Shown here piece by piece: positions 535 through 28,714 of a stretch of DNA of 33,476 nucleotides. Below the pieces are notes generated by a model that saw only the letters and a list, made by a program, of their open reading frames with translations, made no database searches and was not told where the DNA came from. A program made the position numbers and the translations under genes. The stretch lies in the NCBI GenBank assembly GCA_902777615.1, contig CACYUQ010000010.1, positions 1 through 33,476 on the forward strand, in the 5' to 3' direction. Each line of letters opens with the position of its first letter. The first letter of the stretch is position 1. The stretch is from an uncultured Selenomonadaceae bacterium (GTDB taxonomy: Bacteria > Bacillota > Negativicutes > Selenomonadales > Selenomonadaceae).

Positions 535-1875
535 TTATGCCAAACTTTCCTTCCCGTGCCAATTCATCAGCAGGCGGACCCAGCCGTCTTTTTGCTCAAA
601 GAGTACGGTCGCGTCGTATTTCTTGCTGAAGTTCCGCAGGGAGACCATGCCGGTGCCGTGGCCATGCTCTTTGGTGGTCGGCAGGCCGTCTTCTCCGAAC
701 CGGAGCGGCGCGTCGAAGCGATTTTCCACGACCAGCGCGTACTCCCGCTCGTCACAGGAAAGCAGGACGCGAAGCTCCCGTTCCCCTGCCCGCTGCTTGC
801 GGCTGGCGATGACCGCGTTTTCAATGACGTTGGACAACAAAATCGCAAGATCGTTATCTCCCCCTTGCGGACATTCTTTGTCCAGATGGACGTTGTAGAA
901 AATCCGGATCCCGTCTTTTTTCGCGAGCTGCATATAGACGGTCAAAGCCGCGTTCACGATGGGGCTTTCACAGTACACGGCGATGGGCTGCGCGAGCAGC
1001 TCTTTATCCTGTGTCCCGACCAGCGCGCGGGCTTTCTCAAACTCGCCGGCGTCGATCAGGGTGGCCAAGAGACGGTTGTAATGCCGCAGGTCGTGACGGA
1101 CGCGCTGCACATCCTCCGTGCGCGATTTCAAGAGCGCCGCGTAAGCCTCCAGCGCTTCAAGCTGCTGGGTCAGGAGCTCGTTGGTATGGCGCTCGTTCTG
1201 GATTCGCGCCGCGCGCTCCCCGGCGTAGAGCGAGTACTGGTACAGGGTGATGCCCCAGAAGAACAGTACGAACCGCAGGATCGCGTCCGACATGGTAAAC
1301 AGCAGCGGTCTGTCAATCAGCAGGATCAGCGGCGTGGCGCAAAGTCCCAGCGGCATGACCGCAAAGCACCAGCCCGCCAGCCGATTGCCGGAAAAGAGAT
1401 GCGACGGCAGCAGGTTCCGGAAAATCCGTCGCTCCAGCGGCAGCATGACGAGGAAAAAGAAGATGTACAACGCCGTCTGCGTCGGCAGCCGGTTGACACC
1501 CGTGCCGAAGGACGGCGGCAGCAGCGTCAAAATCACCGCGCCGCTCATCGTATGCAGCAGGAAGAACCAGAGCATCTGCATCCCCACCACGAAGGTGTGG
1601 CGCATGGCCTCGTGACGGATGACCAGGAGAGAGAGCGCGAAGAACGGAAGCCAGCCGAAGTATTGGACGTGCTTGAAAGAAGCGACGTCGAGCCCCGCGT
1701 GCCAGAAGTACGCCGCATAAATGGCACAGGACAACGGCGCCCAGAGCAGGATGTAGTTCCGCAGGCGGGTGCGCTCCTCCGGGAGCATTCTCGTCTCGAA
1801 TGCCAAATAGCGAAGATACGCGCCGATCATCTGGATCAGCGTGATGCCCACCGCCATGCCCAAGATAAGCGCCAT
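535..1875 (-). CDS. AgrC-like GHKL sensor histidine kinase
   Basis: The first ~215 residues are strongly hydrophobic with about six membrane helices and no clear extracellular domain. A helical linker follows, then RVRHDLRHY (around residue 260), the usual phosphoacceptor site of this kinase class. The C-terminal ATPase domain has an N-box (NVIENAVIAS) and a G-box (HGHGTGMVSLRNF). The architecture matches peptide-sensing kinases of the AgrC/ComD type, which partner LytTR regulators. It is divergent from such a regulator with about 60 bp between them. A GTG at 1884 is in frame, but the ATG at 1875 has better spacing to the weak AAGTGA Shine-Dalgarno. No peptide pheromone gene is visible beside it, so the ligand is unknown. 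Confidence 0.85.
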   Translation of the reverse strand: MALILGMAVGITLIQMIGAYLRYLAFETRMLPEERTRLRNYILLWAPLSCAIYAAYFWHAGLDVASFKHVQYFGWLPFFALSLLVIRHEAMRHTFVVGMQMLWFFLLHTMSGAVILTLLPPSFGTGVNRLPTQTALYIFFFLVMLPLERRIFRNLLPSHLFSGNRLAGWCFAVMPLGLCATPLILLIDRPLLFTMSDAILRFVLFFWGITLYQYSLYAGERAARIQNERHTNELLTQQLEALEAYAALLKSRTEDVQRVRHDLRHYNRLLATLIDAGEFEKARALVGTQDKELLAQPIAVYCESPIVNAALTVYMQLAKKDGIRIFYNVHLDKECPQGGDNDLAILLSNVIENAVIASRKQRAGERELRVLLSCDEREYALVVENRFDAPLRFGEDGLPTTKEHGHGTGMVSLRNFSKKYDATVLFEQKDGWVRLLMNWHGKESLA

Positions 1876-1935
1876 ACATTTCACTTCATTTCTATACGAA
1901 AATTATATATAATTATACTATAAAATAGGGAGAAG

Positions 1936-2655
1936 ATGAATACCATGCGAATCGCAATCGTGGAAGATGACGAAAGGGACATGAAGCATCTGGTAAGCGC
2001 CCTCGACGCGTATGCCTGCGGTCATGGCCTGACCTTCAATATCGACACGTTTTCCTCCGGCGAGGATTTTTTGCGGGCCTTCGCGCCACAAAAATACAGG
2101 CTGGTCTTTTTCGACAACTACATCGGAAACGGGCTGGGCATCGACCTGGCGCGCAAGGCGCGGTCACGGGACGCCGATGTGGAGTTCGTCTTCGCCAGCA
2201 TGAGCATGGAGTTCGCGCTGTCGGGCTATGAGGTCCGCGCGCTGCATTACCTGATCAAGCCCGCCATGCCCGAGGATATTGAGAAAGTCTTCGAGCGGCT
2301 TTCGAGGATCACGCCGCAGTCCGAAGCGCCGACCATCGAAGTCATGTGCGACTATCATCCGACCCCGATTCCCGTCAATTCCATCCGATATATCGAAGTC
2401 GTCGACAAGGCGTGCATCATTCACGCGGAGAAGGAATTCAAGACGTATATGCGGCTGGGGAGCTTGTTGGAGCTTTTGCCGCCGGAGGATTTTATCCGTC
2501 CCCATCGAAGCTTCGTCGTGCGTCTCGCCTCTATCCAGTCCATGACCCCAAAAGAGTTTACGCTGAAGGGCGGCGGGACCGTCCCCATCGGCCAGTCGTA
2601 CCAGAACGACTGCATCCGCGCCTATATCGAGTATCGCGCGCGCAGTCAAAGATGA
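1936..2655 (+). CDS. LytTR-family response regulator
   Basis: The N-terminal receiver domain carries the acidic cluster EDD (residues 10-12), a phosphoacceptor Asp60 in VFFDNY, and K at LIKPA. The C-terminal part (about 135-235) is a LytTR DNA-binding domain, with recognisable IRYIEV, FIRPHRSFVV and VPIGQSY segments. It is therefore a transcription factor expected to bind paired direct-repeat sites after phosphorylation by the divergent GHKL kinase. An in-frame ATG at 1945 gives the typical start MRIAIVEDD and is an equally good choice, because GGGAG at 1928-1932 sits between optimal spacings for the two. The targets cannot be told from the window. The AT-rich intergenic gap (1876-1935) holds TATACT- and TATAAA-like -10 sequences. 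Confidence 0.9.
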   Translation: MNTMRIAIVEDDERDMKHLVSALDAYACGHGLTFNIDTFSSGEDFLRAFAPQKYRLVFFDNYIGNGLGIDLARKARSRDADVEFVFASMSMEFALSGYEVRALHYLIKPAMPEDIEKVFERLSRITPQSEAPTIEVMCDYHPTPIPVNSIRYIEVVDKACIIHAEKEFKTYMRLGSLLELLPPEDFIRPHRSFVVRLASIQSMTPKEFTLKGGGTVPIGQSYQNDCIRAYIEYRARSQR

Positions 2656-24312: not shown

Positions 24313-24400
24313 TGAGTAGCCACACATCTGACAGTTTCAATCATGGCTAGATGTGTACAAATATAGGCGATCAGAGAAATCTGGTCGCCTTTTTCTATAC
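24313..24400 (+). terminator. tRNA-flanking terminator segment, copy 1 of a duplicated block
   Basis: The segment carries ACACATCT/AGATGTGT as an inverted repeat and then the terminator AGGCGATCAG/CTGGTCGCCT with a T-run. It is closely similar to 28632-28714. The similarity begins on the first base after the tRNA CCA end. Confidence 0.8.
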
Positions 24401-24440: not shown

Positions 24441-24492
24441 TATAAATATTTTTTTCAGCAGCGTCAATTTTTTGAGCCTTGTAATAATTTTC
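24441..24492 (+). repeat. Nif11-promoter element, degenerate copy A
   Basis: It has the CAGCGTCAATTTTTTGAGCC core, but the second half-site reads TGTA instead of TGAC and no -10 or peptide gene follows. About 70 bases of AT-rich DNA without an ORF separate it from copy B. Confidence 0.65.
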
Positions 24493-24564
24493 AGGTTGTA
24501 TAGTGTTTTGTTTATTGTCCTATGAAACCGCCCAAAAATCGAGGGGTCTCTAAAAGAGGATAGG

Positions 24565-24645
24565 ATATGATATAATATATAAAAAAATTTTTTCAAAAGC
24601 GTCAATTTTTGGAGCCCTGACTTGTATATATAGTAAAGAATATTA
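24565..24645 (+). promoter_or_regulatory. Nif11-promoter element copy B
   Basis: GTCA (24601-24604) and TGAC (24618-24621) are inverted half-sites 13 bases apart, followed by TATAGT (24629-24634). The peptide gene starts 41 bases after the -10. The upstream AT-rich tract is also shared with copy D. Confidence 0.75.
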
Positions 24646-24674: not shown

Positions 24675-24917
24675 ATGCCGGTCAACAAAAACGAACTCAC
24701 GAAAGAAATGCTGGAAAAAGCGATGCAGTGTGAAACTGCGGAAGAACTGATGGCGTACGCCAAAACGGAAGGCATTGACCTTACTAAGAAAGAAGCCGAG
24801 GCGTATCTTGCCGAACTGTCGGAGTTTGAGCTGAAAGACGGTGACCTCGAACGTGCTGCGGGAGGAAAGGCCCCGGGCGGCGGTGATAAAAGTATCCCGC
24901 CGGAATCGCGCTATTGA
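24675..24917 (+). CDS. Nif11-type leader peptide 1 (putative RiPP precursor)
   Basis: The 80-residue product starts MPVNKNELTKEMLEKAM and has the helical, acidic leader with AEELMAYAKTEG and KKEAEAYLAEL typical of Nif11-like precursor peptides. The leader ends in a double-glycine site AAGG (61-64), where a C39-type peptidase would cut. The predicted core is KAPGGGDKSIPPESRY, Gly/Pro-rich and without cysteine. AGGAGGG lies about ten bases before the ATG, and a terminator follows. No modifying enzyme or exporter is in the window, so processing is inferred from family knowledge. Confidence 0.85.
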   Translation: MPVNKNELTKEMLEKAMQCETAEELMAYAKTEGIDLTKKEAEAYLAELSEFELKDGDLERAAGGKAPGGGDKSIPPESRY

Positions 24918-25001: not shown

Positions 25002-25058
25002 GTATTATCATCAGCGTCAATTTTTGGAGTCCTGACTTGTCTATATAGACAAAGGGCA
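25002..25058 (+). promoter_or_regulatory. Nif11-promoter element copy C
   Basis: GTCA (25016-25019) and TGAC (25033-25036) have the same 13-base spacing, and TATAGA lies at the -10 position. In this copy the -10 region is a perfect palindrome, TTGTCTATATAGACAA. It drives only a broken gene. Confidence 0.72.
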
Positions 25059-25091: not shown

Positions 25092-25333
25092 ATGCCGATC
25101 AACGAGAAGGAAATCACGTAAGAAGCGGCTTGTACAGCACATTCGTGACGCTAAAGCGGAAAAAGAACAATACCACTGGAACACGGCAGTGGTATTCAGC
25201 GGACGTCGATCCAGATTCTATTGAGCTAGACTACGAAGATGAAAACCACAAACTCAGGATAGGTGAGCTTCTTAACAAGCAGGCTGAGATTTATGAGGCT
25301 CTCGGAGTGGCATTGCCAACCTCGTCATGTTAA
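25092..25333 (+). pseudogene. decayed Nif11-like/unknown peptide gene
   Basis: A normal ribosome site (AGGGAGGAG) and start give MPINEKEIT and then an immediate stop at 25119-25121. Removing one T restores EITKKRLVQHIRDAKAEKEQ. A second shift near 25195 leads into DVDPDSIELDYEDENHKLRI, ending at 25333. A separate frame from a TTG at 25130 reaches the same C-terminus. The simplest reading is one former gene with at least two frameshifts. Only the first residues resemble the Nif11 leaders; the rest I do not recognise. Confidence 0.5.
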
Positions 25334-25850: not shown

Positions 25851-26064
25851 CTACTGCTCATAGGCGTTGAACAAGCTCCCCTCGATGAATCGAACGTCAT
25901 CAATAGGGATACTCGTTCCGTCAGCCATGATTATCTGATGCCCTGTACCATCCAGTTTTCTAATATTACCGGAGACCGTCGTATAGCGGCCTCCGGTTTT
26001 TTCGTGTCTGGAACGAAATAGGTAACGACGATGTATGTGACGGTGTTATTCGATTGTTCCTTGG
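25851..26064 (-). pseudogene. broken 3' copy of YolD-like gene
   Basis: The sequence closely matches the C-terminal part of the gene at 27035-27415, by eye above 90% over about 150 bases. One extra A in the run before CCGGAGGCC shifts the frame, and the 5' half is missing. It is followed directly on the right by promoter copy D. Confidence 0.75.
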
Positions 26065-26067
26065 CAG

Positions 26068-26150
26068 AAGTTATTATGATATAATTTAAAAAATTTTTCA
26101 TCAGCGTCAATTTTTGGAGCCCTGACTTGTATATATAATAAAGGGCATTA
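26068..26150 (+). promoter_or_regulatory. Nif11-promoter element copy D
   Basis: This is the best copy: GTCA (26106-26109), TGAC (26123-26126) and TATAAT (26134-26139). Initiation near 26146 would give a 34-base leader. No good -35 hexamer is present, so the half-sites may bind an activator. Confidence 0.78.
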
Positions 26151-26179: not shown

Positions 26180-26443
26180 ATGCCGATCAACAAGAACGAA
26201 CTCACGAAGGAAATGATCCAAAAGGCGATGGAGTGCCAGACCGCCGACGAGCTCTTGAAGCTGGCCAAGGCCGAGGGCTACGACGTCACGAAGGAAGAGG
26301 CGGAGGCGTATATGGCGGAGATGGCCGACGTGGAGTTGGACGAAGAGACGCTCACTAAGGCTGCGGGCGGCGGGTGTTACAATTTGGGTTGTGAGTCTCG
26401 TTGTGACTCGCGTAGGGTTCCTCCCCATCAAGCTGTACACTGA
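26180..26443 (+). CDS. Nif11-type leader peptide 2 (Cys-rich core)
   Basis: The 87-residue product has the same leader as its neighbours (MPINKNELTKEMIQKAM, EEAEAYMAEMADVELDEE) and a double-glycine site at 63-64. The predicted core starts GCYNLGCESRCDSRRV and has three cysteines plus Ser residues, so a cyclic thioether or disulfide product is possible. It is the first of three tandem genes behind promoter copy D. Nif11-like leaders direct modification by lanthipeptide or other RiPP enzymes in known systems; none is encoded here. Confidence 0.88.
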   Translation: MPINKNELTKEMIQKAMECQTADELLKLAKAEGYDVTKEEAEAYMAEMADVELDEETLTKAAGGGCYNLGCESRCDSRRVPPHQAVH

Positions 26444-26484
26444 CTAAACGATAAAATTCCAATAGTATGAAGGAGGTTTTATCA

Positions 26485-26742
26485 TTGGCAAAGAAACTCA
26501 AACGGGAAGAACTCACGAAGGACATGGTGAAGAAAGCGTTGCGCTGCAAGAACGCCGACGAGCTTCTTGCGCTGGCGCAGGCTGAAGGCTACGAGATGAC
26601 ACGGGACGAGGCTGAGGCCTATATGGCGGAACTGGCGGACTTCGAGCTGGACGACGAGAATCTCAAAAATGTTGCTGGCGGCGGGTGCTACATGCTGTGC
26701 CCGCAAGAGGCAATTTCTTTACCTTTCAATGAGGAGAAATGA
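26485..26742 (+). CDS. Nif11-type leader peptide 3
   Basis: The start is placed at TTG 26485 because AAGGAGG (26470-26476) lies just upstream. The ATG at 26467 falls before that ribosome site and would add six unrelated residues. The 85-residue product begins MAKKLKREELTKDMVKKAL, keeps the DEAEAYMAELADFELDDE leader signature and has VAGG at 63-66. The predicted core is GCYMLCPQEAISLPFNEEK, with two cysteines. It ends two bases before the next gene's start, so it is co-transcribed. Confidence 0.86.
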   Translation: MAKKLKREELTKDMVKKALRCKNADELLALAQAEGYEMTRDEAEAYMAELADFELDDENLKNVAGGGCYMLCPQEAISLPFNEEK

Positions 26743-26744
26743 TT

Positions 26745-27008
26745 ATGCCTATCAACAGGAACAAACTGACCAAAGAAATGATTGAAAAGGCGATGAAGTG
26801 CAAGACCGCCGACGAGCTGATTGCATTGGCGAAGGCCGGCGGCTTTGACGTCACGAAGGACGAGGCCGAGGCGTACATGGCGGAGCTGGCGGACTTCGAG
26901 CTGGATGACGCTATGCTTGAAAACGCGGCCGGTGGCGGCTTGTTTGAATACGTTAGAGATACCAATAAAAAAATAGCTAAAGGGCTTCAGGACTGGATAG
27001 CTGGATAA
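26745..27008 (+). CDS. Nif11-type leader peptide 4 (amphipathic core)
   Basis: The ATG at 26745 is preferred over the ATG at 26739 because GAGGAG (26731-26736) is eight bases away. The 87-residue product begins MPINRNKLTKEMIEKAM and has AAGG at 61-64. The core starts GLFEYVRDTNKK and ends KGLQDWIAG. It has no cysteine and looks like a cationic amphipathic helix, unlike the cores of the two upstream genes. It may be an unmodified bacteriocin-like peptide. It converges on the YolD-like gene 26 bases later. Confidence 0.86.
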   Translation: MPINRNKLTKEMIEKAMKCKTADELIALAKAGGFDVTKDEAEAYMAELADFELDDAMLENAAGGGLFEYVRDTNKKIAKGLQDWIAG

Positions 27009-27034: not shown

Positions 27035-27415
27035 TCAATACTGCTCATAGGCGTCGAACAAGCTTCCCTCGATGAATCGGACGTCATCCATAGGGATGCT
27101 CGTTCCGTCAGCCATGATTATCTGATGTCCTGTACCATCCAGTTTTCTAATATTACCGGAGACCGTCACATAGCGGCCTCCGGTTTTCTTATTGTCCGGG
27201 ATGAAATAGGTAACGGCAATATTCGGCTGCTCTTTGATGTGCTGCTGGATGACAGCTAATCTTGCGTCAATCATATCTATCATATCCTCGCTTAGCTCTA
27301 GTTTTTCTTCGGTTTGTCGAGCTTCTTCTATTACGGATTCCTCGTATCCGGTCAGTGCGGCGAAAGGGGCGAACTGTGCAGCTCTTTTCTCCATCGCCAT
27401 AGGTATGTTCAGCAT
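27035..27415 (-). CDS. YolD-like family protein, N-terminus possibly lost
   Basis: The 126-residue frame contains MAMEKRAAQFAPFAALTGYEES, typical of YolD-like proteins, often encoded with Y-family polymerases in Firmicutes. The rest (EEKLELSEDMIDMIDARL, IAVTYFIPDNKKTGGRYV) fits the family. The best ribosome site (AAGGAA) instead serves an ATG at about 27424 in another frame, giving MTDAEHTYGD, which is how full-length relatives I know begin. A small deletion may therefore have removed the junction and shifted the frame. The 3' part is duplicated at 25851-26064. No polymerase partner is nearby. Confidence 0.75.
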   Translation of the reverse strand: MLNIPMAMEKRAAQFAPFAALTGYEESVIEEARQTEEKLELSEDMIDMIDARLAVIQQHIKEQPNIAVTYFIPDNKKTGGRYVTVSGNIRKLDGTGHQIIMADGTSIPMDDVRFIEGSLFDAYEQY

Positions 27416-28560: not shown

Positions 28561-28660
28561 ATAAAATTATTTTCATCAGCGTCAATTTTTGGAGTCCTGA
28601 CTCGTATAACGCTTTCCAAGGCGGCGGGCGGTGAGCAGCCACCCATCTGACAGCTTCAAT
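28561..28660 (+). pseudogene. Nif11-promoter copy E fused to a peptide C-terminus remnant
   Basis: GTCA (28581-28584) and TGAC (28598-28601) are followed by CGTATAA and then, without any leader, by codons for TLSKAAGGEQPPI and a stop at 28648-28650. TL-KAAGG is the end of a Nif11 leader. About 200 bases covering the start codon and leader have been deleted. Confidence 0.7.
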
Positions 28661-28714
28661 CATGGCTAATGTGTAAAAATATAGGCGATCAGAGAAATCT
28701 GGTCGCCTTTTTGT
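28632..28714 (+). terminator. terminator segment, copy 2 of the duplicated block
   Basis: It is closely similar to 24313-24400, including the AGGCGATCAG/CTGGTCGCCT stem with TTTTT. Here it follows the Nif11 remnant, its likely original context. Confidence 0.8.

Follow-up and report, generated by a model that had tools for sequence, protein, structure and literature searches.

We report that a DNA element repeated within a 33,476-nucleotide stretch from an uncultured Selenomonadaceae bacterium (the window) is very probably (roughly 0.88) the promoter of one dedicated ECF (group IV) sigma factor, which would switch on a scattered set of RiPP precursor genes together. Direct computation gave the boxes and their geometry, the genes that follow them, their linkage to sigma genes, and the covariation between the -35 centre and the sigma recognition helix. 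In the proposed mechanism, a -35 (GCGTCAATTTT) and a TGTAT -10 (followed by A/T-rich sequence), 13 bases apart, would be read by a sigma factor encoded on contig C60. Free C60 sigma would recruit RNA polymerase simultaneously to every box, with scattered Nif11 precursor genes, an NHLP precursor region, and a probable operon behind the sigma gene as its targets. Sigma binding and transcription at the boxes are predicted, as is control of the sigma factor by a small partner protein.

The repeated block and the genes behind it

A 47-base block occurs in five copies in the window (A to E, at 24444, 24582, 24997, 26087, and 28562). Its 24-base core is exact in four of them (24598, 25013, 26103, and 28578), with 0 expected from 100 shuffles. 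The repeat is real and far above chance expectation, and both the recurrence at five places and the near-invariance of the core described in the first-pass annotation were borne out. That annotation also assigned the copies to five Nif11 loci, which overstated the case: intact Nif11 open reading frames lie only behind copies B and D, copies C and E are followed by remnants, and copy A, as had been noted, has no gene. Copy A is a decayed promoter.

Table 1. Probable promoter copies and associated genes in the window
Feature	Position	Strand	Details
Copy A	24461..24493	+	-35 GCGTCAATTTT intact; no TGTAT at right distance; no gene
Copy B -35	24599..24609	+	GCGTCAATTTT
Copy B -10	24623..24627	+	TGTAT, 13 bases past -35
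Nif11-type precursor gene behind copy B	24675..24917	+	tail KAPGGGDKSIPPESRY; TIGR03798 31.7 bits
Copy C	25014..25042	+	-35, N13, TGTCT (one mismatch)
Truncated Nif11 remnant behind copy C	25093..25122	+	MPINEKEIT, stop after nine codons
Copy D -35	26104..26114	+	GCGTCAATTTT
Copy D -10	26128..26132	+	TGTAT
Nif11 precursor, first gene behind copy D	26180..26443	+	tail GCYNLGCESRCDSRRVPPHQAVH; PF07862; TIGR03798 33.6 bits
Nif11 precursor, second in probable operon behind copy D	26467..26742	+	PF07862
Nif11 precursor, third in probable operon behind copy D	26739..27008	+	tail GLFEYVRDTNKKIAKGLQDWIAG; TIGR03798 35.9 bits
Copy E	28579..28607	+	-35, N13, CGTAT

For copies B and D, the ATG is located 76 bases from the start of the box, and a TGTATATATA-like sequence is found 3' of the box. 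Judged by profile match and by a GG preceding the core, the Nif11 genes behind the box are precursors of RiPPs with Nif11-like leaders; the gene behind copy B scores just under the TIGR03798 cut-off of 32.3 bits. The remnant behind copy C has an intact counterpart gene in a relative (L039). Copy E is fused to a Nif11 3' remnant (TLSKAAGGEQPPI and stop, the last codons of a gene), and the junction is an apparent deletion.

Other features were observed in the window. The Nif11 operon of copy D lies between two 95% identical copies of a 149-base repeat (25852-26032 and 27039-27220), which stem from a YolD-like gene and a fragment of it. A repeated 80-base segment (24313-24394 and 28632-28712), found once behind a tRNA-like sequence and once behind copy E, contains a terminator-like hairpin (GGCGATCAGAGAAATCTGGTCGCC, followed by TTTTT). 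A gene pair near one end of the window (535-2655), probably for a sensor kinase and a LytTR response regulator (1936-2655), showed no link to a box.

The source genome (2.12 Mb, 92% complete) contains nine boxes by a reduced-pattern search, five exact and four with one mismatch. A reversed control pattern gave 0 matches in this genome, the 23-base core had no further copy there within three mismatches, and viral contigs contained no exact match to the element. The nine boxes head five intact Nif11 genes, two Nif11 remnants, one sigma-partner gene, and one NHLP precursor region. Those outside the window are located on C11 (two) and C15, before Nif11 genes, on C60, behind the sigma gene, and on C83. 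The C83 box precedes an XRE-methyltransferase gene (~330 bases) and an NHLP precursor gene (~1270 bases), and because of these distances it is the least certain of the nine. This NHLP precursor (L134:3489-4010), behind a one-mismatch box, is of the nitrile-hydratase type (TIGR03793) and has an Ala/Val-rich core. All nine boxes thus have a RiPP or sigma-partner context, which supports the earlier proposal that Nif11-type peptide genes share a promoter element; boxes away from peptide or sigma-partner genes, as a mobile repeat would produce, were not found in this genome and are few in others.

Probable promoter architecture and the candidate sigma factor

Comparison of divergent copies shows what is constant across relatives, namely GCGTCAATTTT, a gap of exactly 13 bases, and TGTAT; the middle varies freely. 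A GTCA-N13-TGAC dyad had been proposed as the core of the element. The second half-site, among 23 distinct Nif11 copies, is TGAC in 5, TGAT in 8, TGCC in 5, and another sequence in 5, and in none of the 10 distinct copies preceding the sigma-partner gene does it read TGAC. The dyad as a palindromic activator operator was rejected, as its half-sites are not both conserved. A second inverted repeat (GCGTCAA-TT-TTGACGC) occurs in two divergent copies only and is not general, and a sigma-54 promoter (GG-N10-GC) was rejected by eye for its wrong spacing and missing GC.

The element has two conserved boxes with fixed spacing, common to the sigma neighbourhood and the targets, as in promoters of the ECF type. 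The observation that it has no good -35 held in that no canonical sigma-A -35 is visible in the window copies, but GCGTCAATTTT fits the -35 of an alternative sigma factor, and such an absence would be expected if the -35 belongs to one. Many ECF promoters carry a classical AAC in the -35, and the -35 here, GTCAATTTT, is without it. The -10 is TGT in this genus and CGT in G061, G005b, G208, and some G038 boxes, and the boxes of sister sigmas carry CGTAT. CGT is the textbook ECF -10, and in later classifications AAC (-35) and CGT (-10) no longer define ECFs (PMC8103513). The missing AAC and the TGT of this genus speak against an ECF promoter, and the CGTAT of the sister boxes speaks for one.

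The first lead to a reader of the box came from G038, of another genus: in L003, a three-mismatch match immediately follows an ECF sigma gene, which itself lies behind a gene for an ABC transporter. Sigma-70 region 2 occurs in five genes of the source genome, and two of these are ECF-like and located close to Nif11 genes. One, on C60 outside the window (G000:C60:1617-2147), encodes 177 residues with PF04542 at 15-82, PF08281 at 116-165, and TIGR02937 above cut-off; having only regions 2 and 4 and a linker of <50 residues, the protein is by its domain content an ECF sigma factor. The other (C5, in an NHLM cluster, ~28% identical) was rejected as reader: no good box was found in its neighbourhood, and the Nif11 genes of its cluster are without a box.

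On C60, the order is an NHLM-type ABC exporter gene (TIGR03797, first 303 model positions missing), the sigma gene, the box, a small gene, a flavoprotein gene, two further genes, a Nif11-Hint fusion, Nif11, and radical SAM/SPASM. At L049:5616-6296, in a RiPP cluster, a Nif11 leader is fused to a Hint (intein/hedgehog-type) domain, and Nif11 matches also occur in open frames of 231-244 amino acids, near the size of this fusion, in related clusters.

In the source genome the sigma gene is adjoined only by the ABC gene and the small gene. The box stands before the small gene; G005b was the one case in which a box was seen preceding the sigma gene. The small protein (94 residues in the source genome) had no family match in a profile search; it reads EMDELFRRADFAAE...RELSEDELEELAAAG, and its end resembles a Nif11 leader. 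It is the first candidate for sigma release. In flagella, FlgM acts as an export-coupled anti-sigma. By analogy the partner might be carried out by the NHLM exporter, freeing sigma only when export works, a model we consider unlikely; if true, the state of the exporter would license the whole scattered peptide library.

In eight species belonging to three genera (G000, G003, G010, G009, G002, G004, G049, and G038), the distance from the sigma gene to the box that follows it is ~30-50 bases. In G005, G006, G007, and G008 the partner gene is elsewhere or further off, still behind a box (<=two mismatches). No box lies directly beside the sigma copies of G005 (main copy), G006, G007, G175b, and G038b/c. 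Among 120 genomes, a sigma orthologue (>200 bits) occurs in 12 and an exact box in 12, with both in 11, neither in 107, and one each with only one of them, counts that are confounded with phylogeny and with the location of a box inside the cluster. The genome with a box and no detected orthologue (G001) is 69% complete.

Sigmas of the same clade that are 38-50% identical, mostly from further genera, also have an adjacent box of the same geometry with a 13-base gap. Trained solely on Nif11 promoters, a matrix found the box beside these diverged sigmas, where present, with p of 0.002-0.012 each against shuffles, as compared with 0.02-0.73 for nine ECF controls outside the clade. The first open reading frame behind the box in G071, G228, G229, and G230 is a Nif11-like precursor.

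The centre of the -35 tracks positions 4 and 7 of the recognition helix AVSxxYxRLL. Helix residues Q..H go with GTCA (own genus, G009b, G175a), H..S with GGCA (G071 group, G061b), S/N..S with GACA (G005b, G229b), and D/E with GTGG or GCGG (G061a, G175c, G208). Grouped by helix class, ten diverged sigmas give a within-class mismatch of 2 (permutation p 0.00015, an optimistic value, as the grouping was made once the data had been inspected). Overall identity fails to explain the -35 centre, because G071 and G229b are 81% identical yet pair H..S with GGCA and N..S with GACA, whereas G000, G009b, and G175a are only 41-48% identical and share both helix residues and -35 centre.

Competing explanations and known systems

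The first-pass annotation envisaged a dedicated activator switching all the peptides. A dedicated regulator is strongly indicated, but the mechanism fits an ECF sigma factor rather than an activator of half-sites. In the activator model, a protein such as the LytTR response regulator at 1936-2655 would bind the dyad and recruit housekeeping polymerase to a TATAAT-like -10. Two four-base inverted half-sites are indeed present in window copies, and LytTR two-component genes occur in the window. However, the second half-site is not conserved, and the genome's four LytTR genes were not observed next to any box. The spacing to the -10 is fixed, the -10 itself varies (TGTAT, TGTCT, or CGTAT) between sigma types, and the -35 centre covaries with the sigma helix, all of which make this model improbable.

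Conservation through recent gene duplication alone could give a housekeeping sigma-A promoter a similar appearance, and TATAAT-like bases do occur 3' of the box in several copies; the bases after TGTAT are, however, only loosely A/T. The same -35, spacing, and -10 also precede unrelated genes (sigma partner, TpsB-like, autotransporter, HlyD-like) and recur in other genera, and we regard a sigma-A promoter as very improbable. The degenerate state of copies A, C, and E and the duplications and deletions at the locus are what might be seen if the block were a mobile or MITE-like repeat merely travelling with peptide genes. Such an origin is extremely improbable given the context of all nine boxes in the source genome, the restriction of homology to promoter positions around a variable 13-base middle, and the location of the start codon ~73-79 bases past the box in most Nif11 copies from genomes of the genus.

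Alternative sigma factors of the UviA/TcdR type serve Clostridium toxin and bacteriocin genes. The ECF sigma factor proposed here would likewise be an alternative sigma dedicated to peptide genes, but the UviA/TcdR type is a different sigma subgroup. Titles cited in PMC8103513 name alternative sigmas for Clostridium toxin and bacteriocin genes. ECF control of lantibiotics is already known, as MibX/MibW and PspX control microbisporicin and planosporicin in Actinobacteria (PMC6001450). These resemble the present case, predicted from sequence in a Selenomonadales relative, in that an ECF sigma is dedicated to a RiPP pathway. MibX and PspX, however, regulate one biosynthetic cluster, whereas the precursor genes here are dispersed around the genome. 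A membrane-associated anti-sigma restrains MibX; beside the C60 sigma no membrane-bound anti-sigma of the MibX/PspX type is present, and the neighbour here is instead a small protein (73-98 residues) that contains no known domain.

Residue-to-base codes for ECFs are likewise known, with domain 2 and 4 residues predicting promoter bases of autoregulated ECFs (PMC8103513); the code described here was read from adjacent boxes within one NHLM/Nif11-linked clade. Its helix and -35 pairs would be a natural orthogonal set of sigma-promoter parts.

Nif11 and NHLP RiPP precursors with NHLM export were described by Haft et al. 2010 (PMC2887384), whose text mentions no sigma factor or promoter. Shared with those systems and with prochlorosins are Nif11 leaders ending in GG, diverse cores, an NHLM exporter, and many precursors. 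In the openly searchable literature we found no paper linking Nif11/NHLM peptides with a dedicated sigma factor (a methanobactin paper, PMC3621798, contains both words) and none on joint switching of scattered Nif11 precursor genes. Such precursor genes can lie far from their maturase and exporter. With the motif and the sigma factor, all peptides of the set could be listed directly for a given genome, and silent ones might be expressed by expressing one sigma factor.

Extent of the proposed regulon

A motif-independent census placed this Nif11 subfamily in G038 and in the genus, across its eleven genomes, with isolated matches elsewhere. First genes without a direct box are mostly inside the sigma/maturase cluster or the other NHLM cluster; G004 and G009 have a few stand-alone Nif11 genes without a box. 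G038 has three such sigmas and ~30 Nif11 genes, several of them preceded by boxes that keep the geometry but vary in the -35 and carry TGTAT or CGTAT. The GGCA-type box of G071 and G061 is unique to the sigma neighbourhood (zero mismatches), and their set therefore appears to be single-site. The scattered set appears to occur only in the genus (g1) and, probably, G038. In single genomes the box also precedes genes for a TpsB-like outer-membrane protein, an autotransporter, and an HlyD-like protein, which may be members of the regulon. Between a box and its Nif11 gene in G009 (L042:8130-8377) lies an insertion that has AAGGAAGCACTGA-type ends.
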